From a virus: DNA of 44,633 nucleotides. The notes under the pieces were generated by a model. The model was not told where the DNA came from. It did no database searches and saw only the letters and a program-made list of their open reading frames with translations. A program made the translations under genes and the position numbers. This document shows, piece by piece, positions 5,440 through 44,073 of the stretch (within the stretch, counting starts at the first letter, position 1; every line of letters starts with the position of its first letter). The stretch covers positions 1-44,633 of the IMG/VR virus record IMGVR_UViG_3300035670_000410; one strand, given 5' to 3'.

Positions 5440-5468
5440 TATCTCTCTTCACTTCGTTCAGAGAGATA
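5440..5468 (-). promoter_or_regulatory. Leader hairpin, second copy of the conserved-loop element
   Basis: TATCTCTCT (5440-5448) pairs with AGAGAGATA (5460-5468) around a loop containing TCACTTCGTT. Stem and loop match the inner part of the hairpin at 3859-3907. It ends 20 bases before the start of the zinc-finger gene, directly upstream of its ribosome site. Confidence 0.7.
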
Positions 5469-5507
5469 TAAACCTAAGAAGAGAGTAGGGTTTCCAAGCC
5501 GATCTCC

Positions 5508-5969: not shown

Positions 5970-6180
5970 CGTATACACATACCCATACCCCCGTTATGAC
6001 CCACCCACATATATATAATTACTATGCATATATTTTTTGAACATTATGAGTTTTGGCTTAAAACTGTTATATTATGTTAAGGTTTGATTAAGATTATGAT
6101 TTTTGTTTCCGGTTTGTGTTGTTTTGTTCGTTGGTATTAGTGTAGGGCTATTTTTTTTTATTATCCTGAGGGGGTGTTTT
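5970..6180 (+). other. Non-coding leader of the rightward arm
   Basis: This AT-rich stretch before the first rightward gene holds no supported ORF; the in-frame extension of the fibre gene from 6103 is hydrophobic and lacks a ribosome site. I found no convincing -35/-10 pair: TATATT at 6068-6073, preceded by TG (6065-6066) one base earlier, resembles an extended -10 without a good -35. A rightward promoter is expected here but not located. Confidence 0.4.
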
Positions 6181-23405: not shown

Positions 23406-23422
23406 TTTTATTAGGAGGATTT

Positions 23423-26400
23423 GTGGCTAACACTAAATGGACGGACAAACGGATTACTAGGTATTTGAGTTCTAGTAATCAGCCTATTGAGTGGAATCCG
23501 CAAAAGCAGAAGTTTATTACGGCTAAGGAGTTTCGTCGGGACCCGGCGAAGACTGAGATTTATACTTTGCCGACTAATCGTCGTGTCTTTTGGAATCCGC
23601 TTGCTGGTAGGTATCAAGAAGTTTCTCAGGTTAAGCAGCCAAAGTATACTTTTGGTGAGGCTATGGGGCTGGCTAAGTATGGTTATACTGGCCTGTATGG
23701 TCGTGGTAAGAAGAAGACGGTTGGTTTGCTTGGTGAGAATTATCAGCAGGTTCAGGCTCTTGCTAATTATCGTAATAGTTTAGCGATTCCAGAGTTTAGG
23801 TTGGATCCTAAGTCTAGTAAAGAGGCTCTTACTGATTTGGCTGCGGCTACGCAATTAATTCCGGGTAGGCCACAGTATAATTCGCTTGCACAAATGTATA
23901 CTGGTTTTGTTGAGAAGTATGGTGCGGATGCGAGTGGGTTTGTTCGTCGTTACGGGGCTATGCCTTCTAAGGAAGGTAAGTATGGTGTCCTGTTTGATAT
24001 TAATAATCGTAAGATTCGTCGTGATGATGTTCTTGGGACGTATCAGAATAATCTTGCTAAGACTCTGATTGATGCTGGTAAGGCTATGACGGCTGAGGGT
24101 ATGCCTGAAGAGGATAAGAGTATTGGTATTGATTTGATTGCTGCGGGTCAGGACGCGCGTCTTGCTTCGTCTCGTTCTAAGCCTAATCCTGATAAGATTA
24201 AGATGCTTGAAGAGCAGTTTAGTCTGCTTGGTGAGCGTTATATTCCTGAGGTTCAACAGTCTGTGAGCGCGGCTACTGGTGTTGATGCTGCTGCTCCGTC
24301 GTATTCTAAGAAGGCTACGAGTGCGGCGTTGGCTATGATTGCTGGACCTATTGGTAGTATTGTAGGTAATAGTACGGCTGGTAATGATCTTACTAATCGT
24401 GCTCTTGATTATATGAGTGGCTTGGCAGAGTCTAATATGATGAAGGGTAAGGAGGTTTGGTGGAAGGAAGAGGAGAAGCCTGAGGGCGCTTCTTGGGACT
24501 CTAAGGGCCTTCTTGGTTTGTATGTTAACTTCACTAAGGGCCTTGCCCGGTTCGGGCTTGGCCTGCCTGCTGGTGTTTTTGCTGTTGGTGGTGAGGCTAA
24601 GATGGCTGGTGAAGAGTCTATTAAGGCTCCTCGTCAGGCGGCTGCTGGTCTTGTCAGTACGTCTCTCGCGGTTGGTACTCTTGGCGTGGTGGATCAGGAT
24701 AAGGCTAAGAAGGCGATTGAGAGTGTTATTGGTCGTGAAGAGCGCGACTGGGGTGACGGTGTAGATTTCCAGATTGGTGATATGATGTGGGCTGATTATG
24801 CTCGCAGGTATTATGATCCGTTTGCTTACGAGGTTGATGAGAATGGTAATTTTGTTCTTGATGAGGAGGGTAAGCGGAAGTTTCAAGGATTCTGGTCGGG
24901 TGTTACCAATCAGGATAATTATGATGCTATGGGTAATGAGATTGCTGTTGACCCGTTAGCGATCACTCTTGATGTTCTTGATATTGCTCCTATTATTGGT
25001 TTTGCTACTAAGTCTGCTAGTGTTGCTAGTATTGGTGCTCGTGTGCCTCGTTATGGTGGTAAGATGGGTATTACTCGTGCTGATATTGTGGCGATTGAGG
25101 AGGCTCAGAAGCGTGTTGTTACTGCTGGTGAGGCGGTTGAGGCTATTCCTGCTGCTGCGCGAGAGTCGGCGGAGAGTATTATTAAGAAGTTGGATGAGAA
25201 TCCTGAGTTGGTTGATGTGCTTGATGAGGATCAGATTCTTGAGGCTGCTCGTGTGCTTGCTCCTGTTGAGGAGGCTCGTGCTGCTAAGTTTGAGGTAGAG
25301 GTGCTTCAGCGTAAGTTAGATTCTGCTCCTAATCCTCGTAATTTTAGGCGTATTCTTCGTGCTGCTATCAATGGTGATCCTGAGAGTATTCGCCGGTTTG
25401 ACGAGTGGAAGGCTCAGGGCCTCGCGTTTGATGGTATTGAGAATAAGTGGACGGTTCGTGCGAGCGCGTTGTTTGAGCCGCGTTCCCGCGTCTTAGAGAA
25501 GCCGGAGAGTGTCCTTGAAGGGTCTGATAAGGCTATTATTCGATTGCCTGCTAGCCCTATTGTACGTGGCTTAAAAGAGGGCTGGTATTGGGTTGGTCGT
25601 AAGACTGAGGCTATGGCTGCTAGAGAGTTGGCTAAGCCTGAGACTGGTCGTCGTACGGCGGCTGTGCTTAGTAAGTGGATTGATATGCCTCGTTTTGGTT
25701 ATCGCTGGTCGTATACTCGTGCTATTAAGAATGAGGCTATTTACGATTGGGGCGATAATGCTTCGGAGTTGTATCGTCAGTCTAAAATTATGCGCATTGA
25801 GGGCGCGGCTAATGTTAGTGTGCCTATGCGTCAGGCTATTGAGGCTGAGATTTTTGGTGGCGACGGACTGGTTGGTCCGGCTATCGCTCCTCAGATTCAA
25901 CGAGCAGCGTTGAAGGAGAAGTTGGCTAGCCTCATGCGTGACAAGGATGGTAATGTTGTACCGTCGTTGCGTAATGATGAAGCGTTGTATCAGAAGAAGT
26001 TGAATGATCTTATGGATCGTGAGATTGCTAAGGTTGATACGGATCTTGCTGAGGCCGCTTTTGATGAGGCGTGGGAGTCTGGTCGTCAGGATCTTAAGGC
26101 GCGTATTGCTAATCCGGCGTATAAGGCTGATGATGCTGAGTTGGATGCGGCGATGGATTTGTATCGTCGTCTGGTCGCTCAGGACGAGTCTATTAGTCAT
26201 CGGCTTGTGCATGAGGATATGACGCCTACTACTCTTAATCATTTAAAGCAGTTGTATGCTGAGGCTATGAATGGTCTTAAGTTAACAGAGAATCATTTGT
26301 TTGGTAAGCGTGGTCGTTTGAAGAAGTATCGTGATCGTGTTCTTCGTCCTAATAACGCGCTTGCTTTGTATGTTACTCGTTTTGTTGATGTTGATAGTGC

Positions 26401-29146
26401 TGATGAGATTATTGCTGCGGCTCAGGCTGAGAATCGTATCGGCACGGTGTTTGACGAGTTAGAGCCTAACATTAAGAAGGAGCGGGAGCAGCAACTTGTT
26501 AATGCTGTTCGTGCTTTGACTGAGGATAATGCTGGTATTTTTCGTGATGGTCTTGGTGGTGCGGGAGAGATTGGTCGTCCGGTGCTGATTCTGGCTAGAG
26601 AGCAGACGGCTGGAGCAGACTTTGTGCAGTTCCATATTCCACGCTTGCGACACTCGCTTGATAATGGTAAGGTTATTAATGGTAAGTTAGTTGATGAAAA
26701 TGAAGTGTTTACTATGCCTAAGGTTTTCTTTGTGCGTGGTAAGAAGGGTAAGAAGGCTGCTGTTGTTGAGTCTGTTGAGCAGGGCCAGAAGTTGCTTGAG
26801 GCTGGTTCGTTAAATGCTATGGCGGATATTTATCCTAATGCTCGTTTTTATTCTGAGAAGGTTGCTGAGACTGGTCAGCAGGGCGTCCGACTTAATGAGA
26901 AGATGGTTAAGACTGAGAGTGTTATTGCGAATAGTGCTATTCGTGAGCATAGTTTGGCTCAGGTTATTCGCAGTCAGTATAATTATTTTGTTTCTCGTGT
27001 TGAGCGTGATCTTGGTACGCTTGCAGAGTCTCAGGCGGTTCTTATTCCCGCGTCTCAGGTGGTTGGTCGGGATCCGGCACAGTCTGGTTATCGCGTGTTG
27101 CATAATATTCGCTCGTTTGATAATATTGAGGATGCGCGTATTTTTGCTAGGCAGCGTGGTGTTCTTGACGAGTTTGAGCAGGCCGCAACATTATACGAGA
27201 ATGGGCTTCTTGATGAGATAGATTCTACGTTGGATGTGCCTGCTGGTATGGGCATTCGTCGTATGCCGAATGGTGAGGTTGAGTTTATTGTTCGTGGCGG
27301 AGTGGAGGATTGGGCGCCTTATGCTATTGATGAAAGTTTGGAACAGCATTCTACGCTTGCTGCTTATCGGGATGTTATGTATTCTGATCCTGTTGACATT
27401 CCCGATCACGGCTTTGTTCTTGCTGTCCCTAATCAGGTCGATCGTCAGTTAAGTGTTCTTGCTATTGAGGGTGATGATTTTGCTACCCGCTTGTTATCGA
27501 ATCCTATGCTTAAGGGTTCGACTAATATCTTTAAGTGGTGGGTGCTAAACTTTAATCCTAAGTTTATTTCGAATAACGTGCTTGGCGGCTTAACGATGAT
27601 GATGATTCATAATCCGGCCGCTGCTCCTAAGATTCTTATGCGGGCTGCACAGTCTATTGCGCGTAAGAATGGTGATACTCGTATGAGTAATGTTGTGCGT
27701 GAGTCTGAGGCTGTTAATCGTAACTTGCAGTACGAGTTTGAGCATAATGCGTATCGTAAGGATGCTAACTTTAGAGATAATACGCCTGATAGTATTCGTG
27801 ACTTGTCGAATAAGCACGAGTGGTTTAGGAAGTATATCCAAAACTTTGGTTATACTACTATTAGTGCGTTTGAGGAGTTTATTCGTAGGAATGTGGCGAT
27901 TGATTATCTTCGCCAGGACCCTACGTTTAATGCGTTTATGCTTGGTGATGAAGTTGCAGATTATATTCGTCGTGGCATTGACTGGGATGGTAATGTGCGT
28001 CGCGGTGATGATGCGATCACTCCGTTTGAGGCTGCAACAAACTTGCTTCTTGATCGTAACTCGCCATTCTTTAACGCAGAGTTAAAGCATCGTATGCGTT
28101 ACACTACAAATACTGTGTCTGGTAATTATCATAGGTTTAGCGCAACTGAAACATTTTTGCGTAACTTCCTTATGCCATTCTATTCGTGGCAGCGACACTC
28201 GTTAACGTACACGTATCGGCTTGCTGTTGATAAGCCGATTACTGCTAACGTGTTGTATAATGTTGGTCAGTATGGTTATATTGAGGCTGCTAATTCTGGT
28301 GTGCCTGATTATCTTATGATGACTGTGCCTATGCCAGAGGCTATTAAGGAGATGTTTGGTATTACTGAAGAGGATTATCGTATTGATATGAATGCGTTGT
28401 CGCCGTTTGCTACGGTTGGTGATATGGCTGCTGCGGCTGCTAATCTTCTTACTGGTACTGATCTTGGGGCTAGTGTGTTTGAGTTTACTAACCCTTATGT
28501 TAATCAAATTATTAAGGATACTCTTGGTGTGGATCCTCGTACTGGCCGGTTTGATTTTACTGGTGAGCAGTCTGGTAAGGGCTTCATTAGTGCGTTGTAT
28601 GATACGGCTAAGGGCATTGGTAAGGGTTCGTATCTTGGTCGTGGTAAGGGTTTATATGATGCGGTTGATAGGGAGTACGAGGCTGATTCGATTGCGAATA
28701 AGTATGCTGCGATTGATAATGCTGCTGATATTCTTAAGAATTATGAGGCGGGCGAGGATTTTAGCGAGTGGAAACTTAGTATTCCTGAGATGCGTTCTGT
28801 GCAACAACTTGCTGGTGATCCTAACGCAGCGGTTCTTAATGCTCTTGGTATTAGTACGTATCGTATTAATCTTGATGCTCTTGACGAGTCGCAACGCGCA
28901 GAGGTTGTGGGTGCGTATGTGCTTAATAAGGTGAATGAGTCTAAGTTGGCTGAGCAATCACAGCAGAGGCTTAACGGTGTGCTAGAGTGGCAGCGTGAGC
29001 GGGATTATGTGTATCAGGTTTGGCTTCCTATTGCTGAGCAGCAGGGTCTTCCTGAGGAACAAATTAGGCTGGTTCTTGCGAAGATTGAGGATCAGAAGCC
29101 TAAGAATAAGAAATCACAGAAACTTCTTGAGATGATGGGAGGATAA
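23423..29146 (+). CDS. Giant internal virion (ejection) protein, 1,907 aa
   Basis: The start is GTG at 23423 with TTAGGAGGATTT just before it. The protein is mostly helical, with long charged helices in the middle (residues about 600-1000) and a more conserved-looking C-terminal third (SNNVLGGLTMMMIHNPAA, NFLMPFYSWQRHSLTYTYRL, VDKPITANVLYNVGQYGYI). I saw no transglycosylase, peptidase or nuclease motif. Length, late position and company of two smaller Ala/Gln-rich proteins suggest the largest ejection protein, comparable to T7 gp16 in role. A hydrophobic stretch near residues 300-350 (ATSAALAMIAGPIGSIVG) could be membrane-active. Confidence 0.72.
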   Translation: MANTKWTDKRITRYLSSSNQPIEWNPQKQKFITAKEFRRDPAKTEIYTLPTNRRVFWNPLAGRYQEVSQVKQPKYTFGEAMGLAKYGYTGLYGRGKKKTVGLLGENYQQVQALANYRNSLAIPEFRLDPKSSKEALTDLAAATQLIPGRPQYNSLAQMYTGFVEKYGADASGFVRRYGAMPSKEGKYGVLFDINNRKIRRDDVLGTYQNNLAKTLIDAGKAMTAEGMPEEDKSIGIDLIAAGQDARLASSRSKPNPDKIKMLEEQFSLLGERYIPEVQQSVSAATGVDAAAPSYSKKATSAALAMIAGPIGSIVGNSTAGNDLTNRALDYMSGLAESNMMKGKEVWWKEEEKPEGASWDSKGLLGLYVNFTKGLARFGLGLPAGVFAVGGEAKMAGEESIKAPRQAAAGLVSTSLAVGTLGVVDQDKAKKAIESVIGREERDWGDGVDFQIGDMMWADYARRYYDPFAYEVDENGNFVLDEEGKRKFQGFWSGVTNQDNYDAMGNEIAVDPLAITLDVLDIAPIIGFATKSASVASIGARVPRYGGKMGITRADIVAIEEAQKRVVTAGEAVEAIPAAARESAESIIKKLDENPELVDVLDEDQILEAARVLAPVEEARAAKFEVEVLQRKLDSAPNPRNFRRILRAAINGDPESIRRFDEWKAQGLAFDGIENKWTVRASALFEPRSRVLEKPESVLEGSDKAIIRLPASPIVRGLKEGWYWVGRKTEAMAARELAKPETGRRTAAVLSKWIDMPRFGYRWSYTRAIKNEAIYDWGDNASELYRQSKIMRIEGAANVSVPMRQAIEAEIFGGDGLVGPAIAPQIQRAALKEKLASLMRDKDGNVVPSLRNDEALYQKKLNDLMDREIAKVDTDLAEAAFDEAWESGRQDLKARIANPAYKADDAELDAAMDLYRRLVAQDESISHRLVHEDMTPTTLNHLKQLYAEAMNGLKLTENHLFGKRGRLKKYRDRVLRPNNALALYVTRFVDVDSADEIIAAAQAENRIGTVFDELEPNIKKEREQQLVNAVRALTEDNAGIFRDGLGGAGEIGRPVLILAREQTAGADFVQFHIPRLRHSLDNGKVINGKLVDENEVFTMPKVFFVRGKKGKKAAVVESVEQGQKLLEAGSLNAMADIYPNARFYSEKVAETGQQGVRLNEKMVKTESVIANSAIREHSLAQVIRSQYNYFVSRVERDLGTLAESQAVLIPASQVVGRDPAQSGYRVLHNIRSFDNIEDARIFARQRGVLDEFEQAATLYENGLLDEIDSTLDVPAGMGIRRMPNGEVEFIVRGGVEDWAPYAIDESLEQHSTLAAYRDVMYSDPVDIPDHGFVLAVPNQVDRQLSVLAIEGDDFATRLLSNPMLKGSTNIFKWWVLNFNPKFISNNVLGGLTMMMIHNPAAAPKILMRAAQSIARKNGDTRMSNVVRESEAVNRNLQYEFEHNAYRKDANFRDNTPDSIRDLSNKHEWFRKYIQNFGYTTISAFEEFIRRNVAIDYLRQDPTFNAFMLGDEVADYIRRGIDWDGNVRRGDDAITPFEAATNLLLDRNSPFFNAELKHRMRYTTNTVSGNYHRFSATETFLRNFLMPFYSWQRHSLTYTYRLAVDKPITANVLYNVGQYGYIEAANSGVPDYLMMTVPMPEAIKEMFGITEEDYRIDMNALSPFATVGDMAAAAANLLTGTDLGASVFEFTNPYVNQIIKDTLGVDPRTGRFDFTGEQSGKGFISALYDTAKGIGKGSYLGRGKGLYDAVDREYEADSIANKYAAIDNAADILKNYEAGEDFSEWKLSIPEMRSVQQLAGDPNAAVLNALGISTYRINLDALDESQRAEVVGAYVLNKVNESKLAEQSQQRLNGVLEWQRERDYVYQVWLPIAEQQGLPEEQIRLVLAKIEDQKPKNKKSQKLLEMMGG

Positions 29147-31319: not shown

Positions 31320-33236
31320 TTAGCCTTTAATATCCACAACCTCACAAGCATCACTCGTACAAGCAAACGTCTGACTAGACTCAGTATTATCCTCCAACTC
31401 GTAATCACTCAACTTAGCCCAATCAATACTCTTAGGAGACTCCTTTACAAGAGACTCATACTCTTCCTTACTGATCGACTCGTAAGGAGCCTGACGATAC
31501 GTATGATCGCTCTTAGGCAAGAAGGAGATACCACTCACCTCGTCAAAATGATCCCACACCCACGAGCCTACACGCATCCACTCATCCTCAGCAACACTCA
31601 CCGTAATACTAGGCTTATGCTCACACCAATTCTCCTGATAACACAACCAGAGTTCCAAATGCTCAATCGCAGTAAGATCCTGCTTATACATTGTAGGAGA
31701 CTTCTGCGGGAACGAGAACACCATCATATTATCCGGGTTCATAACATCCGGCTCGTGAGGAATACCAGAATCCATAAGGAATTGTGTCAACGGGTCCTTA
31801 ACATCACCGCGCACACGGCGAATATAATACTCAGAATAGCGAGGATGAATGCCGGAAGCGGAGTCTACCAACTGAGAGACAGTACCGCTAGGCTTGACAC
31901 AAGTAATGGCAGTAGACTGAGGAATACCAATCTGCTTAGCATACTTCGCATTAGTCATCACCGCCTCTTGACGCAACTCTCGTAGATTAGAAGCCAACTG
32001 GTAAACACCCTTGCCTACCATACTCTTGTTATCGAAGATTCCCGTGAGCGACACGCCGAGCAGACGCTCCTCCTCCGTGTTCTGCTTCCACACCTTACGC
32101 AAATACTTGAAATCCGTAAGAGTCGCTTGGAACGTCCCAAGAATTGTAGCCAACCGTACCTTACGCTTAAGTGAATCTGGATCATCTTCAGCACGAACCA
32201 CAACCTCAGTAAGATTACAAAACTGGTGCGGGCGTAGAATAATCTCAGAGCATGGATTAGTGCCAAACGCAAATGAGTAGTCCCTCCGTCCATTCTTAGC
32301 GGCCTGCTTCTGCGCAGCCTCACGATTAAAGATACCCCGCTCGCCACTCTTGGACTGGTAGAGGCTTAGCCATTCCTCCATGAACGCATCCATACCCGGC
32401 GTGTCAGTATACGCAACGGAATTATTTGCAAGTGCACGTTGAGGGTTGTCGGTCCACCACTCACCGCTTTTAGCATTCCGCATTCGACCATCTGATAGGT
32501 TGCTAAGCGAGATAAGGGCTGAACGCCTAACCCCACCAACCACGACCACTTCAGCAATCTTACATACAATATCATGACACTCCACCGCGTACAACTTACG
32601 CCCAGCAGCATTTTGAAACACGCTAGTCACAAACTTAAACAAGTCTTCCAATGGTTCGGGTCCACTAGCACGACCACCAAACGTCTTAAGCCGACTACCT
32701 GCGGGACGCACAGCGCTCATGTCCCATTGTGGGATTTGCCCACTATAAAGCATAGCGATCAACTCTCGCAGAGCCTTAGCCCAACCACCCTTAGAATCAC
32801 CAACCTTAATGATCGTATCACTCTTCTCAAAATGCTCATTCACTACGGGCAACTGGTTAATCTCGTCACGCTCCACAGAGAAGCCAACACCTACACCATT
32901 CATAAGAATGTATAGAATCTCATCAAAGCAACGCTGATGATTGACAGGAGTATACGAACAATTATATCCAGCCACGTTCTCTCTGGCGAGGGCTGGTCCA
33001 GCCGTCATGAGCGCTCGCATACTAGGCATAACCTCTAGGTGAATGATAGCATCAAGCAACTCTGCCTTCAGCACAGCATCCATCTTATAATTATGCTTCT
33101 CACGAAGTGTGCACTCCATGAACTCAACATAACGATTAACCGTTTCCGGCCAATATTCTCGCCGCTTCTCCTCGTCCAACCAGCGAGCGTAACGAGACGT
33201 TGCGATAAACGTCTGATAATCAGTTGGTAGGCTCAT
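31320..33236 (-). CDS. nrdJ: Class II (B12-dependent) ribonucleotide reductase
   Basis: The 638-residue enzyme makes deoxyribonucleotides using adenosylcobalamin. The monomeric RTPR-type cysteines are in place: NCSYTPV near residue 95, NPCSEI with FCNLTEV where the two cysteines are 11 apart (as C408/C419 in the Lactobacillus enzyme), and a C-terminal C-T-S-D-A-C pair five apart (as C731/C736). PSGTVSQLVDSASGIHPRYS is the phosphate-loop region. It is shorter than the Lactobacillus protein, as phage versions often are. A GGAGAGAG site precedes ATG 33236. It is the last gene of the leftward arm and feeds phage DNA synthesis together with the dUTPase. Confidence 0.93.
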   Translation of the reverse strand: MSLPTDYQTFIATSRYARWLDEEKRREYWPETVNRYVEFMECTLREKHNYKMDAVLKAELLDAIIHLEVMPSMRALMTAGPALARENVAGYNCSYTPVNHQRCFDEILYILMNGVGVGFSVERDEINQLPVVNEHFEKSDTIIKVGDSKGGWAKALRELIAMLYSGQIPQWDMSAVRPAGSRLKTFGGRASGPEPLEDLFKFVTSVFQNAAGRKLYAVECHDIVCKIAEVVVVGGVRRSALISLSNLSDGRMRNAKSGEWWTDNPQRALANNSVAYTDTPGMDAFMEEWLSLYQSKSGERGIFNREAAQKQAAKNGRRDYSFAFGTNPCSEIILRPHQFCNLTEVVVRAEDDPDSLKRKVRLATILGTFQATLTDFKYLRKVWKQNTEEERLLGVSLTGIFDNKSMVGKGVYQLASNLRELRQEAVMTNAKYAKQIGIPQSTAITCVKPSGTVSQLVDSASGIHPRYSEYYIRRVRGDVKDPLTQFLMDSGIPHEPDVMNPDNMMVFSFPQKSPTMYKQDLTAIEHLELWLCYQENWCEHKPSITVSVAEDEWMRVGSWVWDHFDEVSGISFLPKSDHTYRQAPYESISKEEYESLVKESPKSIDWAKLSDYELEDNTESSQTFACTSDACEVVDIKG

Positions 33237-33959: not shown

Positions 33960-33980
33960 AAACACCTCCTTTATTAAAAA

Positions 33981-34062
33981 TAGGGCCGGAGGGGATCGAA
34001 CCCTCACGCCCGTAGGCAACGAATTTTAAGTCCGTCGTGTCTGCCAATTCCACCACGGCCCC
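33981..34062 (-). tRNA. tRNA-Leu (anticodon TAA)
   Basis: The 82-base class II cloverleaf has acceptor GGGGCCG with CGGCCCT (one G-T pair), anticodon stem ACGGA/TTCGT around CTTAAAA (anticodon TAA), a long variable arm, and T-arm GAGGGTTCGATCCCCTC. Discriminator A, no CCA. It lies between the metallophosphoesterase and the 33246 gene, and reads TTA and, by wobble, TTG. Confidence 0.93.
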
Positions 34063-34066
34063 ATTA

Positions 34067-34834
34067 TTACTTACTACGCGCAACGATCTTAATGCCACGA
34101 GCACCATACGAAACCATATCCGGCTTACCATTCGTGATAAACCAGTAACCATTACACCAACTAGGATACGTCGTAGTGCCCTGCAAGTATTCCGTCTGAG
34201 GAATGTTAAAGAAACCACCCAACTCGCCAACAATAAACGAACCACTAGGATCCCAACCCATAGCACAATGATGCGTATGTGCAGTAAGCACATGACACTT
34301 CTTAACCTCTGCAATAGCAAGAGGATTATTCAAAGGGCTTTTAGAGTACGAGTCTGGGTGAGCAATAAAATAACGTTCCTTATTGCTCGTGATATAACAA
34401 TGATCCAGATTGCTGAAACGCAACTTGCATCCGTGACGCGGAACATCCTTAAACACTTCGGTCATACTATCCACAAAAGACTCACGATACTCCGCAGCCT
34501 TAGTATACCGATAATCATGATTACCACGCAAGAACACAATGTTACTAAAGTTAGCACAAAGAATCTCCATCAGGCTCTTAGCCTCCGCAACCTCCTTCTC
34601 AATACCAGCACTCTTCTGCTTAGGATAATACGCGCTCAGCGAATCACCATTCAAGAAGTCGCCAGCGATGAGAAGATTCTTATAATCAGCAGCCTCGCTA
34701 AGAAACTCGTTAACAAGATCAGCATCATACAATGGTACGTGCCAGTCAGCCGTCACAGCCCAATCACCCTTTAACTCAAAGGGACGATCAAGCCCGAACT
34801 CAAACCTACTTTTATTCTTGGTATCAACCCGCAT
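34067..34834 (-). CDS. Calcineurin-like metallophosphoesterase
   Basis: The 255-residue protein carries the full set of metal ligands of the family: D-W-H (D-x-H, about residue 30), G-D-F-L-N-G-D (about residue 58), GNHD (about residue 105), an isolated H in IAHPDSY, and AHTHH near the C-terminus. Such phage enzymes hydrolyse phosphodiesters or phosphomonoesters; some act in DNA repair (SbcD/Mre11-like) and others on nucleotides, and the sequence does not decide which. The start at 34834 has GGAGAG eight bases upstream. It overlaps the sigma region-4-like gene by 11 bases. Confidence 0.85.
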   Translation of the reverse strand: MRVDTKNKSRFEFGLDRPFELKGDWAVTADWHVPLYDADLVNEFLSEAADYKNLLIAGDFLNGDSLSAYYPKQKSAGIEKEVAEAKSLMEILCANFSNIVFLRGNHDYRYTKAAEYRESFVDSMTEVFKDVPRHGCKLRFSNLDHCYITSNKERYFIAHPDSYSKSPLNNPLAIAEVKKCHVLTAHTHHCAMGWDPSGSFIVGELGGFFNIPQTEYLQGTTTYPSWCNGYWFITNGKPDMVSYGARGIKIVARSK

Positions 34835-35120
34835 CAAGAAACTCTCCATTCATAATATTAGTCAAAGCGTCAAGCGCATCGTTAAGACGATAATTAATCA
34901 TCCGAGTGCTGACACCATCATTAAGTGCCTGATCTTGAATAGGCATACCGTTCACAAACACATTCACAATCGTATAATATAATACAGAGTTCTGCTTTTG
35001 TAATTCTTTTAACGCATATACAATATCAAGATAATAATCTGAGAATGTAGAATCCGGGTGCTGTTGCAGGCTATAATAGTTCCTCAGCAGATTCTCCACT
35101 ATCTCCTTCTCGTACACCAT
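34824..35120 (-). CDS. Sigma-70 region 4-like protein (98 aa)
   Basis: Residues 35-95 have the layout of sigma region 4: a helix ALKELQKQNSVLYYTIVN, then the helix-turn-helix IQDQALNDGVSTRMINYRL and a last helix NDALDALTNIM. In sigma-70 proteins this part binds the -35 element. The ATG at 35120 lies inside the end of the region-2-like gene, in a different frame, with GAGGAG seven bases upstream, so it has its own translation start. The 50-base overlap with the upstream gene suggests the two are made together. An ordinary HTH regulator is the alternative. Confidence 0.65.
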   Translation of the reverse strand: MVYEKEIVENLLRNYYSLQQHPDSTFSDYYLDIVYALKELQKQNSVLYYTIVNVFVNGMPIQDQALNDGVSTRMINYRLNDALDALTNIMNGEFLDAG

Positions 35121-35406
35121 CTAGAATCTCCTCATAACTTACTGAATGATTATGCCGTAACCGCTTAGTGAACCGGACCCAATCCTTCATACGATTATAA
35201 ACAATCCTACTTACTAGTTTAACATCCTCGTTCGTTTGTTTTTGTCTTAGATTCCATACTTTGCGTCTCGTATCAGGAGAGCATAACCATAGTGAGATCA
35301 TGCCCTCCTGATAGAGATCATCATACTCTGCTGCTTTACGGAATGTATAAGCGGCGGAGTGGATAGCGCCTTTATACTCCCCGATAAACTCTTCGGGGCC
35401 CCACAT
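35071..35406 (-). CDS. Sigma-70 region 2-like protein (111 aa)
   Basis: Residues 10-40 (IHSAAYTFRKAAEYDDLYQE, then G-M-I-S-L-W) match sigma region 2.1-2.2, which binds the beta-prime clamp. TNEDVKLVSRIVYNRMKDWV (residues about 58-77) corresponds to the region 2.3-2.4 helix that melts and reads the -10 element. The protein ends soon after with an acidic tail, without regions 3 and 4, which appear to be supplied by the overlapping gene downstream. Start ATG 35406 overlaps the SSB stop as TGATG. It is likely to direct host RNA polymerase to phage promoters. Confidence 0.72.
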   Translation of the reverse strand: MWGPEEFIGEYKGAIHSAAYTFRKAAEYDDLYQEGMISLWLCSPDTRRKVWNLRQKQTNEDVKLVSRIVYNRMKDWVRFTKRLRHNHSVSYEEILDGVREGDSGESAEELL

Positions 35407-35762
35407 CAGAACGGAAAATCATCCCCGGTGACGGCCTCAGCAACAGCAGGAGAAGCCGTCGTAGTAGGAGCAGAAACCGTGGTGTCACCAGCGACACGCA
35501 CAACCGTAATAGCGGACAGGTTATGATACGTGACCTGCTCACCCGCCTTGTTCTGCCCAACACTAGACGAATACTTACCGTCACACACGAGGAAGTCGCC
35601 CTTGTTTACAGGAATGCTAGCCTTCTCAGGCCAGATCGTGACACTAAAGTTCTTGTTAGAACCAATAGCCCGGATCACTACATCACGAACCTCCTTACCG
35701 CCAGCCTGACGGGTACGAGGATCAAACTGCACGATACCAGCAACGGTCACATACTCACTCAT
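35406..35762 (-). CDS. ssb: Single-stranded DNA-binding protein
   Basis: A 118-residue protein with a compact OB-fold domain (YVTVAGIVQFDPRTRQAGGK, FSVTIWPEKASIPVNKGDFL), a low-complexity T/A/S/P linker, and the diagnostic acidic C-terminal tip DDFPF, which in bacterial SSBs recruits partner proteins. It coats single-stranded DNA at phage forks. The second of two tandem ATGs (35762) has the better spacing (7) to AAGGAG. It sits in the replication operon between the nuclease and sigma-like genes. Confidence 0.88.
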   Translation of the reverse strand: MSEYVTVAGIVQFDPRTRQAGGKEVRDVVIRAIGSNKNFSVTIWPEKASIPVNKGDFLVCDGKYSSSVGQNKAGEQVTYHNLSAITVVRVAGDTTVSAPTTTASPAVAEAVTGDDFPF

Positions 35763-36084
35763 CATTAGTCTCCTTGTCTGTATACGCATCCCACATTTTG
35801 AGGAATGTCTTGTACGGTACAACTACGAACCTTCTACCAGTTTTGGCTTCTCTTAGAAACAACGCCCATTCTTGCTTGCGAGCATTATGCTGCGCTTGTT
35901 TGAGGTCTGCGTCTTTCAATGAGAGGCGCTTCTGATACTTACATTCTGGTGCGAACTCTATAGGAAGATCGGTTACGTCTGGTACATCAAAACCACGAGG
36001 ACCAGTACGAGTCCCGCCAAGATCACGAGCGACCTCACGCTCCCAATCCTTCCATTGTTTACTCCTGTTCGGAGGCAGGCTCAT
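35755..36084 (-). CDS. PD-(D/E)XK endonuclease, resolvase-like
   Basis: After KQWKDWEREVARDLGGTRTG the protein has D-V-P-D-V-T-D-L, then about 12 residues on E-C-K, the D...ExK metal-binding core. The size (about 109 residues) and helical C-terminus fit phage Holliday-junction resolvase-like nucleases, which debranch DNA before packaging. Several start codons (GTG 36105, ATG 36093, ATG 36084) lie close together without a clear ribosome site, all inside the end of the upstream gene; 36084 is a choice. Substrate is inferred. Confidence 0.72.
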   Translation of the reverse strand: MSLPPNRSKQWKDWEREVARDLGGTRTGPRGFDVPDVTDLPIEFAPECKYQKRLSLKDADLKQAQHNARKQEWALFLREAKTGRRFVVVPYKTFLKMWDAYTDKETNDE

Positions 36085-37697: not shown

Positions 37698-38444
37698 CTA
37701 TCGGACGACGCGAATAAAGACTTGTACCTGACGCTTGTTACGAGTGCGGCGCATAACCTGCCCGCCGTCACTATCATTACCCTGACTCGTGTTACCTTCG
37801 ATACACTTAAAATCACCCTTACTATTAGGCTTTGTCTCAACGATACCAACATGATCGCTGATACCATCCCCCTGCCAGTCGAACATAGCAATGTCTCCGG
37901 GCTCTACCGTGTTAACAGGAACAACGACGAGTCCGTTGCGCTGTGATCGCGCATCATTTACCATGAACGGACAGTATGCCCAACGCGCCTTCTTCGGATC
38001 AAAAGACTGACTGCCCGCCTTCGTGTAACACCAAGTAACAAACATTGCACACCACGGGCCACGCAAACCATACCAGTCGGAGAACATAACCTTGTTAGAG
38101 TTCGGAGGCGACTCCTTAGTTCCAAGCCACTTCACCGACTCTGCAAGCGCCTTCTCACGCATCGGCTTATGCGAAACCTTACGCTTCTCAGCGCGACGCC
38201 GCATAAGCGCACTAGGCTTCTTCTTACGAGTAAGATAATCATGAAGCGCCTGACCATACGTCTGCGTACATTGCCGCTCAGGGTATCCGAGCATCCACTT
38301 AGCCTGCTTAGCAGCAGCCGCAGTAGTAGGACCAAAGATACCATCAACCTTACCAACCCAAGCGCCATACGACTGAAGCGCCTTCTGTGCCTTCTTAACA
38401 TCCTCGCCACGCATATACGGGCTAGTCAACTTTAGGATTCTCAC
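37698..38444 (-). CDS. Endolysin: peptidoglycan-binding plus CHAP domain
   Basis: The N-terminal part (residues 1-70) is a PG_binding_1 repeat (EDVKKAQKALQSYGAWVGKV, DGIFGPTT). A basic linker follows. The C-terminal part (about 95-248) is a CHAP amidase/endopeptidase: the catalytic Cys in GPWCAMFVTWCY, His in ISDHVGIVET, and a later E-G-N-T-S-Q-G-N. It cuts the host cell wall at lysis once holins open the membrane. The start GTG at 38444 has AAGGAG six bases upstream and overlaps the previous stop as GTGA. It is unusual in lying among replication genes, far from the holins. Confidence 0.9.
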   Translation of the reverse strand: MRILKLTSPYMRGEDVKKAQKALQSYGAWVGKVDGIFGPTTAAAAKQAKWMLGYPERQCTQTYGQALHDYLTRKKKPSALMRRRAEKRKVSHKPMREKALAESVKWLGTKESPPNSNKVMFSDWYGLRGPWCAMFVTWCYTKAGSQSFDPKKARWAYCPFMVNDARSQRNGLVVVPVNTVEPGDIAMFDWQGDGISDHVGIVETKPNSKGDFKCIEGNTSQGNDSDGGQVMRRTRNKRQVQVFIRVVR

Positions 38445-38677
38445 ACCCAACTCCTTTGCTCTTTAATAGTCTTCTGCTCTTCAATATAAATCAACCTATC
38501 AATATACCACTTAGCCTTTAGCAGATCCTCCATTCCATTCTTGTAACGATAACGGGCTACATATTTTAGCACATTACCCTGATGATAGTCAAGTCCCAAG
38601 CCCTCAATGGCTGTAATAACTTCCATCTCTCCCTGCGTGTAATGCGCAGGACTGTTTACAGGATCATCAATCGCCAT
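38441..38677 (-). CDS. DUF3310 protein (nucleotide kinase-like annotation)
   Basis: The 78 residues include D-P-V-N-S-P-A-H-Y, E-V-I-x-A-I-E-G-L-G, the Q-G-N-V-L-K-Y-V-A-R-Y-R-Y-K-N-G core and a helix LLKAKWYIDRLIYIEEQ: the DUF3310 (SaV-like) signature, common in phages of many hosts. Biochemistry is not settled. The ATG at 38677 is correct by homology; the ORF could extend to 38800 but that part overlaps the HNH gene. Confidence 0.85.
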   Translation of the reverse strand: MAIDDPVNSPAHYTQGEMEVITAIEGLGLDYHQGNVLKYVARYRYKNGMEDLLKAKWYIDRLIYIEEQKTIKEQRSWV

Positions 38678-39026
38678 AATGAATCTTCCTATGACACGGA
38701 CGACACACGGGAACACACTTCTCAATCTCTCTACGAAGAGAATCTGAAGAACGATTATACACAGCCTTCGACACGTTAAGATCCTTAGACTTAGGATCAA
38801 GGTGGTGAAGGTCGATCAGCGAGGGATGCAGGATCTTCCCACAACAATGACAAGGCTTATACTTAGCCTCTGCGACAATACCCTTGTTGATAATCGTGCG
38901 AGTGTTTGTCTTGTCAATACGACATTGGCGGCACAGGCTCTCGTGTGTGCCACGCTTCTTCTGGAAATAAAAATCGTTTACTGACTTAACTTCTTTGCAA
39001 TGCGAACATGTCTTATACTCAATCAC
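38667..39026 (-). CDS. HNH homing-type endonuclease, downstream of polymerase C-half
   Basis: Residues 5-35 have a zinc finger (C-S-H-C-K-E and C-R-Q-C). The HNH core is CHCCGKIL, DLHHLDPKSK, then CVPVCRPCHRKIH, with two more CxxC pairs. The start GTG at 39026 has AAGGAG eight bases upstream and overlaps the polymerase stop; it is preferred over the ORF start at 39080. HNH enzymes of this kind are typical free-standing homing endonucleases that spread by cutting related phage genomes. Together with the HNH gene at 39755-40033 it flanks the C-terminal polymerase piece. Confidence 0.85.
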   Translation of the reverse strand: MIEYKTCSHCKEVKSVNDFYFQKKRGTHESLCRQCRIDKTNTRTIINKGIVAEAKYKPCHCCGKILHPSLIDLHHLDPKSKDLNVSKAVYNRSSDSLRREIEKCVPVCRPCHRKIHYGD

Positions 39027-39786
39027 TATACGGCTCCTTGTCTGCCCAGTTAGTATACGAGACTTCGCAGTCCGTGTCAATACTAACGTATTCTTCTACG
39101 TTTTTATTCCCCATTAGTGTTGGGATTGTGTTAACTAGTGTTGGGATCTCGTTACGATCCGCGTCTAGGATGATCTCGTCATGCACGATATTTACTATAT
39201 GTGTAGCATAATTAGTATACAGATAATCGTCTACTCTTACGACACTATCACGCATGAGGTCTGCTGCTGATCCTTGGATGAGCGCGTTGAGAGCCTTGTG
39301 AGACTCTGTAACGTGCAGCCTACGCCCATACAAACTCTGGATATAACCACGAGTATCCAAGGTTTCTGCGATACTCTGGTTAAGAAGGCTGATACCGGGA
39401 CGAGTGTCATGATACGCCTTCAACAATCGCTTCGCTTCCTTAAATGATACTCCTAACTGTCGCATGATAGTGGGTGTGCCACCACCATAGATGATACTAA
39501 AGTTTAGTGTTTTGCCTACTTGGCGTTCCTCATCTGATACTTCGGGCTTGTTGTATAGTCCTTGAGCAGTAACGGAATGCGGATCCATTCCATAATTAAT
39601 CTCGCCTGCCAAAGAATTATCCCCGATTGCTGCGGCAAGGTAGTATGCGAGTAGTCTGACCTCAATGGCTTTATAATCGAAGAATAAGTATGCGTCAAGT
39701 TTTGGGACGAATGCACGTTTCACATCCTTTTGGCTTCTGGGAATATTTTGTACGTTAATCAGTATCACCACCAATAATAGACTCAT
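39019..39786 (-). CDS. polA: DNA polymerase I, C-terminal polymerase piece (split gene)
   Basis: The 255 residues contain all three catalytic motifs of family A polymerases: motif A DYKAIEVRLLAYYL, motif B RQVGKTLNFSIIYGGG and motif C NIVHDEI. The piece opens with INVQNIPRSQKDVKRAFV, which in intact polymerases follows directly after T-G-R-x-S-S. That missing part is the end of the other piece at 41249-42190. The start ATG at 39786 has no good ribosome site and lies inside the HNH gene, so translation is probably coupled. Both pieces keep key residues, so a two-subunit active polymerase is plausible; loss of function is the alternative. Confidence 0.88.
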   Translation of the reverse strand: MSLLLVVILINVQNIPRSQKDVKRAFVPKLDAYLFFDYKAIEVRLLAYYLAAAIGDNSLAGEINYGMDPHSVTAQGLYNKPEVSDEERQVGKTLNFSIIYGGGTPTIMRQLGVSFKEAKRLLKAYHDTRPGISLLNQSIAETLDTRGYIQSLYGRRLHVTESHKALNALIQGSAADLMRDSVVRVDDYLYTNYATHIVNIVHDEIILDADRNEIPTLVNTIPTLMGNKNVEEYVSIDTDCEVSYTNWADKEPYSD

Positions 39787-40033
39787 TGTAATGTTCTATA
39801 TTATGACAGTTAGCGCAGATAACTTCACACTTATGTATTTCTGTTAATACTTTTTGCCACGAACTAGTCATCATAGCAGCGATACTACGGATTTTTATAC
39901 CCTTAACATGATGGTACTCTAATGCTGCATGATGAGTATTATAGCCACAGTAAACGCATCCAGCAGAAAGTTTAGCGTCCCTTACAAACTCCCATTTGTG
40001 CTGCATACTTGGCTTTCTATAGTATTTACTCAT
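39755..40033 (-). CDS. HNH endonuclease within the split polymerase
   Basis: The 92-residue protein has the complete HNH pattern: AGCVYCGYNTHHAALEYHHV, then ICANCHNIEHY, with two CxxC pairs and the H-H metal site. The start ATG 40033 overlaps the preceding stop as ATGA; an upstream start is unlikely. Its end overlaps the polymerase C-half by 32 bases in another frame. Position inside an interrupted essential gene, at its most conserved site, is the hallmark of a homing endonuclease insertion. Confidence 0.85.
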   Translation of the reverse strand: MSKYYRKPSMQHKWEFVRDAKLSAGCVYCGYNTHHAALEYHHVKGIKIRSIAAMMTSSWQKVLTEIHKCEVICANCHNIEHYNESIIGGDTD

Positions 40034-40215
40034 GTTACACCATAATATTTTAGTTTTACTAGTACCATGAAGATATTCATGGCGGAGTCGAACGAGTCGG
40101 CGAAGATCGGCCAAGGCTTCTCAATAGTTTCTAGTGTGTTCTCGCTCAGCATACTACAATAATACCAGTTCCAACTACCATCCTCGTCCTCACGATAATA
40201 ATCAAATAGGCTCAT
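40030..40215 (-). CDS. Small hypothetical protein in the polymerase insert (61 aa)
   Basis: It starts MSLFDYYREDEDGSWNWYYC with GAGG seven bases upstream and overlaps the glycosyltransferase stop. The pattern is acidic and aromatic at the N-terminus with a hydrophobic C-terminal half (SAMNIFMVLVKL). It overlaps the HNH gene by four bases. No family recognised. Confidence 0.65.
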   Translation of the reverse strand: MSLFDYYREDEDGSWNWYYCSMLSENTLETIEKPWPIFADSFDSAMNIFMVLVKLKYYGVT

Positions 40216-40978
40216 AACTAGCCTCAATCTGTTCTTTATACTTGGCGGATAGTGTTGCTACATTATCTTGGATTTCTTTGTTGTGCACTCGCTGGGCTGT
40301 GCTACTATGAATATGCTGGAGGTAAAGCAACTTGTCAATATGCTGATACCCTGTGCATGTAGTGAGTGTGCGGACTACAATATCATAATCATCAGCGACT
40401 CTGAGGCTAGTGTCGTGCCCGCCTAGAATATGGTATGCGACTCGTCGCCATGCTCGTACATGATTCGGGGCTGATACGATATGACTAAGCGTAACACTAT
40501 TAATCTTTGGTGCTCGCATCACCCACATCTTATACACCTCATCATAATACTCGCCACCGTAACCAAATGCCCAGCCTTCTGGATACCTGCACGACTGGGC
40601 CTGCTCATTAATCTCAGCCCAATTAGAATATACAAACTCTACAGCCTCATCCTGAAAGGCAGAATTAATTTCTTCTAATGCGTCATGGGTGAGTTCATCA
40701 TCATGGTCTAGTTCTACGAGAATGTCACCACGCCCCATCATAAACGCTTGGTGCTTGACTTCTCCGATGATACCGCTAGGGACATGGCTACGGTACATGC
40801 GAATGGTGTAGCGTTCGTCTGCGCAGAAGCCGTAAACTTGTCGCCATGCTAGATCATTAGGCGAGTCGTCCCATACGATCCATTCCCAATCCGTATACGT
40901 TTGATTCTTTAGGCTATGCCATGTACGGGCCAGCACATTTTGGGGTGTGTTATAGATAGGTGTGATTACACTAATCAT
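40202..40978 (-). CDS. GT2-family glycosyltransferase in the polymerase insert
   Basis: The 258-residue protein opens with SVITPIYNTPQNVLARTWHS, has WEWIVWDDSPND, and the metal-binding D-H-D-D (VELDHDDEL, about residue 95), the DxD motif of GT-A fold inverting GT2 enzymes. A later conserved ED-like position lies in RVADDYDIVVR. The natural role could be sugar transfer to phage DNA or to a host surface structure. An AGGAGG box abuts an ATG at 40990, so the ATG at 40978 (12-base spacing) is the better start. It is unusual cargo for an insertion inside a polymerase gene. Confidence 0.85.
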   Translation of the reverse strand: MISVITPIYNTPQNVLARTWHSLKNQTYTDWEWIVWDDSPNDLAWRQVYGFCADERYTIRMYRSHVPSGIIGEVKHQAFMMGRGDILVELDHDDELTHDALEEINSAFQDEAVEFVYSNWAEINEQAQSCRYPEGWAFGYGGEYYDEVYKMWVMRAPKINSVTLSHIVSAPNHVRAWRRVAYHILGGHDTSLRVADDYDIVVRTLTTCTGYQHIDKLLYLQHIHSSTAQRVHNKEIQDNVATLSAKYKEQIEASYEPI

Positions 40979-41024
40979 AAATGCGTACATCCTCCTTGTA
41001 TAGTGCTGGTGTACGGTTTTGCGC

Positions 41025-41252
41025 TCATACCTTATCCGATCCGATAGCCGCACGAATAGCGTGACGGATTGATTCGGCGCGAATCTTCAGCGCCCGTTCC
41101 TCTGAAGTCTTATAAAAGCCCGACGCAGCAAACGCTTCATATGTTCGCGCTACTTCTGCGGCTCGTCGGATTGCACCAAACGATAAAATATCGTCCTGAT
41201 TTTGTGCGTCTTTTGCGCCAGCATCATAACCACTATTATAATCTTTATTCAT
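41025..41252 (-). CDS. Small helical hypothetical protein in the polymerase insert (75 aa)
   Basis: It starts MNKDYNSGYDAGAKDAQNQD with an ATGA overlap with the end of the N-terminal polymerase piece. The rest is helical, rich in A, R and E (AIRRAAEVARTYEAFAASGF). No family recognised. About 46 bases of non-coding sequence to the glycosyltransferase start are the only gap in the whole insert. Confidence 0.65.
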   Translation of the reverse strand: MNKDYNSGYDAGAKDAQNQDDILSFGAIRRAAEVARTYEAFAASGFYKTSEERALKIRAESIRHAIRAAIGSDKV

Positions 41253-42190
41253 GCTTCTGCTGCTCCGCTACTCATCCGACCAGTACGAGTACCATGCTGA
41301 CGGAAGTTAGGATGCAAGATACCATTCTTAGCCTCAGTATCAAGCGCATCAAAATATGTAGACTTGATCTTATTAGCCTCACGCAATTCTACAATCAGCC
41401 CAGCCAACTCGTCATCTACTTGCGATAGCGCGTCTTTGGAGGTAGAGGATACCACGAATCCTCGTTCTTGTAGCGCAGCGAGAACCTGCTGGTGTGATTG
41501 TGGGTTAAACTCTTTCCCAGCAAGTTCCCCAATACGAGACTTAAGTTTGTAAATCCGATCACCATACTCCTTACGTTTTCGTGTAACATACTCACGATCA
41601 ACCTGCATACCTTGTGCTTCGATTCGCAGCAAGGATAGTGTCAACCGCTTCTCAATCTCATACAAAGGAAGCAGATCATTATGCAAACGCTTCGTAAAAT
41701 CTGTGTAGAGTTGCAATGTAAACTCTGCATCCTTTGCGGCATAAGGCGCTAGAATCTCATTCGGAATAGGATAATAACCATCCTCCTTCTTCATCTTATT
41801 CTTACGCCGCCAAACCTTCAGTACCTCATCCTCATCAGTAGACAAGCCGAGATATGAGGAGGCAAGATACTTTAGTCCTGTGGGCTGGTGCTCATCAATC
41901 AGATGCGCCATCGCCTGAGTGTCCTCAAACTTATCAACAAACACACGATAGGGAATACCTAGCCGCATCAACTTCTGCATATCAAACTTCGCGTTGTGCA
42001 TGATGATACGATCAGCCTTGCCAAGATCAACAGTAACATCGCTGATAATATCAAACCATTCTGCGTCATACAACTCGCGCTTGTCAAACACATACGTTTT
42101 TTGTGGCGTGGCGATACTAATCATAAACGCCTCGTCATCCCAAGCGACACCAGTAGTTTCAGTATCAATTGCCAGTAGATCCAAAACCAT
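41249..42190 (-). CDS. polA: DNA polymerase I, N-terminal exonuclease piece (split gene)
   Basis: The 313 residues carry the 3'-5' proofreading exonuclease: Exo I D-T-E (residues 9-11), Exo II HNAKFDMQKL (N66, D70) and Exo III YAAKDAEFTL (about residue 155). The start of the polymerase domain follows (LYEIEKRLTLSLLRIEAQGM) up to HGTRTGRMSS, then five unrelated residues and a stop. The polymerase catalytic motifs are on the second piece at 39019-39786. ATG 42190 has GGGGAGA upstream and lies inside the dUTPase end. The split point is at the conserved T-G-R-x-S-S / N-x-Q-N-I-P site. Confidence 0.9.
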   Translation of the reverse strand: MVLDLLAIDTETTGVAWDDEAFMISIATPQKTYVFDKRELYDAEWFDIISDVTVDLGKADRIIMHNAKFDMQKLMRLGIPYRVFVDKFEDTQAMAHLIDEHQPTGLKYLASSYLGLSTDEDEVLKVWRRKNKMKKEDGYYPIPNEILAPYAAKDAEFTLQLYTDFTKRLHNDLLPLYEIEKRLTLSLLRIEAQGMQVDREYVTRKRKEYGDRIYKLKSRIGELAGKEFNPQSHQQVLAALQERGFVVSSTSKDALSQVDDELAGLIVELREANKIKSTYFDALDTEAKNGILHPNFRQHGTRTGRMSSGAAEA

Positions 42191-42593
42191 TCTCCCCACG
42201 CTCGCCACCCCAGACCATGCCCGGATTAAAATAATAATCTGTCAGCCGAATAATCATCAGTTGGCAGACCCGCATACCATCATGAACACGAAACTCTTCA
42301 TCACTAAAGTTCCCAAGCACAACCTTGATTGTATCAGAATATCCGGCATCAATCAAGCCGGGAGCGTTAAGTACGAACAAGCCGCCATTCTTAGCCAAGC
42401 CAGAGCGGGACAGGATTAGACCAGCGAATCCTTGTGGAATCTGCATACGAATACCAGTATCAACCGTATCTCGTCCCCAAGCAGGAATAGTTACATTCTC
42501 AGCAGCAAACAAATCATAAGCAGCATCATTAGGATACTTACGATAAGGAGCGTTGAGAATGTCCCCACTCTTATTTTCATAGTTGATTCGCAT
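42165..42593 (-). CDS. dut: dUTPase
   Basis: A 142-residue trimeric dUTPase with the family motifs in order: DAAYDLFA (motif 1), SRSGLAKNGG (motif 2), GLIDAGYSDTIKVVL (motif 3), R-V-C-Q-L (motif 4) and RGENGFGSTG (motif 5). It converts dUTP to dUMP and pyrophosphate, keeping uracil out of phage DNA. It overlaps the next gene, the polymerase N-piece. The ATG at 42593 overlaps the preceding gene's end. Confidence 0.93.
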   Translation of the reverse strand: MRINYENKSGDILNAPYRKYPNDAAYDLFAAENVTIPAWGRDTVDTGIRMQIPQGFAGLILSRSGLAKNGGLFVLNAPGLIDAGYSDTIKVVLGNFSDEEFRVHDGMRVCQLMIIRLTDYYFNPGMVWGGERGENGFGSTGN

Positions 42594-43898: not shown

Positions 43899-44073
43899 AA
43901 TGCTCCTTAATATACGCTGCAAACTCTTCCTGACCCTTATCAGTAAACTGATACTTGCCAAGAAACTTCTCAATCCAACCCAACTGCAAAGCCAACGCTA
44001 GAGTAGGATCATCAACCTCAAACTCCAGATTAGGAAGAAACCTATTCTTAAGTTTAGACCATGTTCTCATCAT
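43873..44073 (-). CDS. Small hypothetical protein (66 aa), complete copy
   Basis: It begins with tandem ATGs at 44073 and 44070 inside the end of the nuclease gene and encodes a small alpha/beta domain (DPTLALALQLGWIEKFLGKY, FTDKGQEEFAAYIKEHC), resembling a winged-helix or small phage regulator domain. The beginning of the same gene is visible at 1-78. It overlaps the repair-protein gene. Confidence 0.7.
   Translation of the reverse strand: MMRTWSKLKNRFLPNLEFEVDDPTLALALQLGWIEKFLGKYQFTDKGQEEFAAYIKEHCADIRARD

Follow-up and report, generated by a model that had tools for sequence, protein, structure and literature searches.

Introduction

Two-part sigma factors, split sigma factors of phages and overlapping sigma genes are already known. 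The ECF sigma factors are normally made as one polypeptide, usually with an anti-sigma partner, and in phage SPO1 both gp33 and gp34 are required for the late genes. As regards phage T4, gp55 and gp33 have together been called a "split sigma" (PMC2988020), and a review of this system states that no natural fusion is known and asks why no fused late sigma has been found (PMC2988020). The switches that lead to late transcription have been detailed for few phages and for hardly any actinobacteriophages.

The present work deals with a pair of genes in a 44,633-nt stretch of viral DNA (positions 1 to 44,633 of the IMG/VR record IMGVR_UViG_3300035670_000410), here called the window. A first-pass annotation, made from the sequence alone, had proposed that this pair encodes a two-part sigma factor from overlapping genes. 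That proposal is backed by sequence profiles and structure models, by the constant side-by-side position of the genes and by naturally occurring single-ORF fusions, and it is likely that the pair is indeed a two-part sigma factor.

Gene arrangement and translation signals

Both genes are located on the minus strand. Gene 1 (r2, 35071..35406) encodes a sigma domain 2 protein of 111 aa, and gene 2 (r4, 34824..35120) a predicted sigma domain 4 protein of 98 aa, with a helix-turn-helix. They share 50 nt (35071..35120, minus strand), with gene 2 in the +1 frame, and gene 2 has a GAGGAG ribosome-binding site (35128..35133, minus strand) placed 7 nt before its ATG at 35120 and lying within the Tyr-Glu-Glu codons of gene 1. 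The coordinates, strand, overlap, change of frame and GAGGAG site are thus as first annotated.

The pair is part of a tight minus-strand operon, in the order SSB-like gene, gene 1, gene 2, MRE11-like gene, phrog_7084 gene and ribonucleotide reductase (RNR). The upstream SSB-like gene (35406..35822, minus strand) has a product ending in DDFPF, for which no strong profile match was found in Pfam or PHROG. Downstream, the MRE11-like metallophosphoesterase gene (34067..34849, minus strand; Pfam Metallophos, 8.5e-8) overlaps gene 2 by 26 nt, and the RNR gene (31320..33236, minus strand; phrog_367, 3.5e-193) serves as a synteny marker. Neighbouring genes in this operon overlap by 1, 26, 47 and 68 nt, so that the 50 nt shared by genes 1 and 2 are unremarkable by themselves. 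A tRNA-Leu(taa) (33980-34063) follows closely on the MRE11-like gene, where the phrog_7084 gene starts, and a tRNA-Gln and a tRNA-Leu(caa) are found at 1720-1874.

The signals for translation differ between the two genes. Of 21 distinct relatives, 14 have an SD-like match of 4 nt or more in front of gene 2, compared with 27% at other ATGs, and in none of the relatives does the match before gene 1 exceed 3 nt. The start of gene 1 overlaps the stop codon of the SSB-like gene in the sequence TGATG (35404..35408, minus strand), and in the relatives it usually does so too, as TGATG or TAATG. Since gene 1 has no SD sequence, its translation is probably coupled to that of SSB: protein 1 would be made by coupling to the SSB stop codon, and protein 2 separately from its own ribosome-binding site.

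The two sigma domain proteins

The region 2-like character first assigned to protein 1 is well founded. Its match to Pfam Sigma70_r2 reaches 25.9 bits, over the cut-off of 24, and the same model is matched at E<0.1 by all 19 aligned gene 1 relatives (best 4e-8), while the protein alone matches the sigma70-ECF model TIGR02937 at 5e-6 and phrog_1340 at 1e-4. A sequence-profile search of the PDB with r2 gave one weak sigma match (0.006). The AlphaFold2 model built with the family alignment has a pLDDT of 84, and its top 50 structural matches in VIA are, without exception, sigma domain 2 structures (Z 6.6-8.4), on which it overlays mostly at 2.3-3.5 A over 65-80 residues; these Z-scores are moderate for a helical fold, and weight is placed on the profile matches and on the uniform domain identity of the listed matches. 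Residues D30, L31, Q33, E34 and G35 are invariant in the family, forming a DLxQEG motif (residues 30-35), the segment through which known sigma factors touch the beta-prime clamp helices. Moreover, a basic, DNA-facing segment, NRxKxW...KRL, is conserved. The acidic C-terminal tail, to which the first-pass annotation had drawn attention, is encoded by the DNA common to gene 2; it is not conserved, its length follows the gene overlap, and it is modelled as disordered. The idea of a function for this tail was consequently dropped.

The identification of protein 2 as sigma domain 4 is supported by remote homology plus fold. The window protein itself has no Pfam or NCBIfam match, TIGR02937 included, and a sequence-profile search of the PDB with r4 gave none either; it does match phrog_354, "sigma-K factor", at 3e-5, and 10 of 19 gene 2 relatives match Pfam Sigma70_ECF (best 7e-6). 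Its AlphaFold2 model (pLDDT 91) overlays in VIA on the sigma4 domains of BldN, at 0.9 A over 59 residues, and of WhiG, at 1.0 A over 60 residues, with Z of 8-10 against sigma4 of ECF factors, WhiG and BldN. The recognition-helix residues R73 and R78 are conserved, and two additional N-terminal helices are found beside sigma domain 4. The region 4-like helix-turn-helix earlier proposed at 34824-35120 is therefore backed by profile matches in the relatives and by a confident model. Since both proteins match sigma regions in profile searches, the two-part reading passes a test that it could have failed. The two halves were modelled apart because an alignment that combined them with the fused protein came out misaligned.

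The fold of protein 2 also admits another reading, namely that gene 2 encodes a Q21-like antiterminator, which has a sigma4-like fold and acts on elongating polymerase, that gene 1 is an unrelated accessory and that there is no sigma factor. Protein 2 aligns with Q21 structures along 85-90 residues, its N-terminal helices among them (Z 7.2-9.0); this is about equal to the sigma4 matches and extends over the whole length of the protein, and the antiterminator is for this reason kept as a rival. Moreover, Phage_antitermQ is matched by 5 of 19 gene 2 relatives (best 0.006), and protein 2 matches the Q-like phrog_79 at 0.049. However, the sigma4 fit is closer (0.9-1.5 A), the Sigma70_ECF matches are stronger (7e-6), and gene 2 both co-occurs strictly with a sigma2 domain and is naturally fused to it in sigma order, as described below. 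An antiterminator is, on balance, quite unlikely.

Relatives in uncultured viruses

The search of viral contigs with protein 1 returned 30 loci, at 44-96% identity, and that with protein 2 returned 14, all of them on contigs that also carry protein 1. Genes 1 and 2 are kept in tandem in 30 of the 30 IMG/VR loci. Among genome contigs, the only match was a partial one, at 30%, in a Flammeovirgaceae MAG.

In the window and in 29 of the 30 loci, which come from many metagenomes, the two parts are separate ORFs. The overlap measures 53, 50, 47, 38, 23, 17, 14 or 8 nt depending on the relative, and two loci (L020 and L021) have none, with a stop between the two genes. These differing lengths argue that the arrangement evolved under use and is not a single sequencing artefact. 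Both genes are under purifying selection: among five close relatives, dN/dS outside the overlap lies at 0.04-0.25 in gene 1 and at 0.10-0.32 in gene 2.

In the remaining locus, L024, both parts form a single ORF of 181 aa, in the same place and followed by the same MRE11-like gene. This ORF aligns in order and end to end with the sigma70-ECF model TIGR02937 (positions 4-159 of 165, E 2e-9), with a score of 37.3 bits that lies under the curated cut-off of 42.9. Compared with the nearest split relative, the junction is shorter by about 16 nt net, and not by a single base. A tree built from the concatenated halves places L024 within a clade of split loci, together with L025 and L014 (support 100/98). 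Being nested among split relatives, the fusion is derived there and does not reflect a sequencing frameshift; within the IMG/VR group, such a derived fusion is represented by one contig. The check for a fused ORF among relatives, called for at the outset, has thus turned up a descendant of split ancestors and given no sign of sequencing error in the window.

These data bear on two further explanations. According to one of them, a single sigma gene has been broken by sequencing error or by decay, and the intact ORF of L024 could be taken in its favour. But the split is present in 29 of 30 loci, both parts have a dN/dS far under 1, and gene 2 is provided with a start and an SD of its own; L024, moreover, lacks some 16 nt net rather than one base, and is nested among split relatives. 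This explanation is extremely improbable and is already refuted by the relatives. According to the other, a programmed +1 frameshift in the overlap produces a fused sigma besides, or instead of, the two proteins. In almost every relative gene 2 is read in the +1 frame, and fusions of the T4 proteins made in the laboratory do work (PMC2988020). Nevertheless, the overlap ranges from 8 to 53 nt, it is absent from L020 and L021, where a stop stands between the genes, and gene 2 has its own SD. The frameshift fusion, raised in the first-pass annotation as something to look for, is very unlikely and was rejected, given that the overlap length is unconserved and that those two loci lack an overlap.

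A homologous pair in Streptomyces phages

Protein 1 weakly matches gp47 of Streptomyces phage Puginator, whose gp47 and gp48 are flanked by MRE11 and RNR, which are neighbours of the pair in the window too, and gp48 matches Pfam Sigma70_r4_2 at 3.8e-5. Relatives of gp47 are present in 164 Streptomyces records, and in some 160 Streptomyces phages of the Arquatrovirinae the homologous pair adjoins MRE11 and RNR. In hhalign comparisons between the window family and the Streptomyces pair, the r2 families align at E 7e-9 and the r4 families at E 4e-5 over their full length, compared with E above 0.2 for the crossed r2/r4 pairs used as controls; phrog_1340 is in fact the Streptomyces r2 family. Profile searches of genomes have to be read with this in mind: that with the r4 family was blank even where hhalign finds Streptomyces r4 homology, and is too insensitive for its blanks to be informative, and that with the r2 family likewise missed Salutena.

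The Arquatrovirinae therefore resemble the window in carrying the two genes in identical order next to MRE11 and RNR, with profile-level homology of both halves. They differ from it in being siphoviruses, some with an integrase, and in a pair overlap of 0-4 nt or a short gap. In Salutena (gp40/gp41) and Vanseggelen, the two genes are annotated as "RNA polymerase sigma factor" and "sigma factor". Furthermore, Caliburn, Legacy and SunsetPointe have one 876-nt ORF (291 aa) in place of the two genes; its linker measures some 50 aa, and it bears the annotation hypothetical or DNA binding protein. In Aaronocolus, Nanodon and Oliynyk, which are closely related to these phages, two genes are present. 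Single-gene and two-gene forms thus coexist in both phage groups. No description of the actinophage pair as a two-part factor was found in the open-access literature searched.

Late operon and candidate promoter

The late operon of the window starts at about 6103, after a candidate late promoter on the plus strand (5988..6019) that consists of CCCCCGTT (5988-5995), 16 nt, and TATATAAT (6012-6019). CCCCCGTT is the only 8-mer common to all regions upstream of terL in eight genomes, where it lies 1.0-1.6 kb before that gene; in 300 shuffles of six distinct lineages, the number of shared 8-mers had a mean of 0.01 and a maximum of 1. In 7 of the 8 genomes a TATAWAT-like box follows after 16-17 nt, giving one two-element site per genome, compared with an expectation of 0.017 per genome; these counts are flattered, the pattern having been drawn from the genomes in which it was counted, and the shuffle test of the 8-mer is free of that. 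G005 has CCCCCGTT with a weaker -10, and the element is also present in G010. Shocker, Jasmine and DS1, which have the capsid protein in common with this phage and no r2 match, are without the two-part pattern. TTGACA sigma-70-like sites are present in non-coding DNA on the early strand, but the window contains a near-chance number of them (7 vs 5.5), and no claim is made on them.

A second conserved block, ATATTTTTGGCAC-like, is found about 20-25 nt past the TATA-like box in most of the eight genomes (6030-6050 in the window). The early and late arms are separated by a 650-bp non-coding stretch (5453-6102) with dense inverted repeats, including perfect arms of 14 nt (5508-5539) and of 11 nt (5942-5969 and 5858-5879); G001 has a similar chain of inverted repeats with another sequence. 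This stretch is a possible origin or regulatory hub.

It had been suggested at first that the pair could explain how a phage without its own RNA polymerase turns the host enzyme to its late genes. No T7-type RNA polymerase was found in the phage with Pfam PF00940, for which T7 itself, as positive control, gave 1e-109; two large late ORFs are without assignment in Pfam and PHROG, and might conceivably include a polymerase of another kind. The conserved element in front of the late operon makes a late-gene switch plausible, and the link between this element and the sigma pair is one that we infer. That the pair drives the late operon from the CCCCCGTT-N16/17-TATAWAT element is, in our judgement, an evenly balanced proposition.

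The element also weighs on the notion that the pair is a decoy or appropriation device, which would bind core polymerase or a host anti-sigma and lower host transcription, initiating none. Phage mimics of sigma domains do exist, T4 gp33 being one that binds the flap without reading DNA (PMC2988020), and in one Rhizobium phage record an entry next to the RNR is annotated as a "postulated decoy of host sigma factor". Against this, the DNA-facing segments are conserved in both proteins (NRxKxW...KRL and R73/R78), and so is a dedicated late-operon element; a decoy role is unlikely.

Proposed mechanism and implications

In the two-part reading, genes 1 and 2 would together encode one ECF-like sigma that is divided in the linker joining domains 2 and 4. 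Protein 1 (sigma2) would bind the beta-prime clamp helices of the host RNA polymerase, and would read and melt the -10 element, and protein 2 (sigma4) would attach to the tip of the beta flap and recognise the -35 element. As the two domains attach to different parts of the core polymerase, they can act without a linker, for which SigO-RsoA (PMC8103513) and T4 gp55-gp33 (PMC2988020) provide examples. Together, both proteins would direct the host polymerase to the late operon, and the single CCCCCGTT-N16/17-TATAWAT site is the most likely place for this.

A broader proposal is more tentative, and we hold it to be rather doubtful: that a widespread lineage of split ECF-like sigma factors exists in actinobacteriophages, common to two phage groups that otherwise differ, in which the assembly of two proteins is itself the late switch, by way of an SSB-coupled sigma2, a sigma4 made from its own site and the CCCCCGTT/TATAWAT promoter, and that independent re-fusions remove this control. 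If true, the re-fusions in both groups would answer the T4 question of why no fused late sigma has been found. The presence of split and fused forms together in cultured Likavirus phages makes this question (PMC2988020) testable, provided that the pair has the late function that we infer for it. Moreover, a split sigma with two true sigma domains, common to uncultured phages and to about 160 cultured Streptomyces phages, can be studied in the laboratory, with the predicted late promoter as a concrete target.

Other features of the genome

The first-pass annotation took the phage for a short-tailed one; the profile matches that bear on this are to portal and internal virion proteins. Its capsid relatives, phages of Microbacterium, Arthrobacter and Cellulosimicrobium, suggest an actinobacterial host. 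The gene for DNA polymerase I is divided into two parts (41249-42208 and 39019-39786), which match successive portions of phrog_17; a glycosyltransferase-family-2 ORF and HNH endonuclease ORFs lie between and after them (38667-42208), and the gene looks like one split by homing endonucleases. Two Cas4/exonuclease-like ORFs, both of phrog_1706, are placed at opposite ends of the record (59-994 and 44054-44632), in which no exact terminal repeat of at least 16 nt was found. Among the late genes, a 1924-aa ORF (23372-29146) has no Pfam or PHROG match; its position is occupied by an unnamed ORF of about that size in the related phages Jasmine, Shocker and DS1. An endolysin-like gene (37698-38450) is located on the early (minus) strand among replication genes, away from the late genes.

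Comparison with known systems

The T4 system resembles that of the window in consisting of a sigma2-type protein (gp55) and a flap-binding protein (gp33) encoded by two genes (PMC2988020). The second components differ, since T4 gp33 is structurally unrelated to sigma4 (PMC7892883) and does not read DNA (PMC2988020), whereas protein 2 of the window overlays sigma4. The T4 genes are, furthermore, far apart, whereas those of the window overlap, and the T4 system needs the sliding clamp.

Genes 33 and 34 of SPO1 are, as in the window, adjacent, with a 4-nt overlap. Unlike the split pair, SPO1 gp34 alone matches sigma70-ECF over both domains, and in hhalign it aligns with the r4 family only through a 31-residue sigma4 segment (E 2e-4). 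For SPO1 gp33, hhalign gives no support for homology with either half (E 0.085 or worse).

As for bacterial systems, SigO-RsoA of Bacillus, compared here by description, likewise has sigma2 and sigma4 on separate proteins, encoded by neighbouring genes, which initiate transcription jointly (PMC8103513), but it is a chromosomal stress regulator and not a phage system. The ECF (group IV) sigma factors share with the pair the possession of domains 2 and 4 only, and differ in that the window and 29 of the 30 loci have two ORFs in place of a single polypeptide.

Novelty among phages, which the first-pass annotation had seen in an overlapping pair of this kind in a short-tailed phage, is not supported in view of the T4 "split sigma" of gp55 and gp33 (PMC2988020), the overlapping genes 33/34 of SPO1 and the partly annotated Streptomyces pairs. 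What is new, in comparison with these systems, is that both halves are true sigma domains, that the pair is found in two phage groups, that natural, apparently re-fused forms of it exist and that a single conserved element precedes the late operon.
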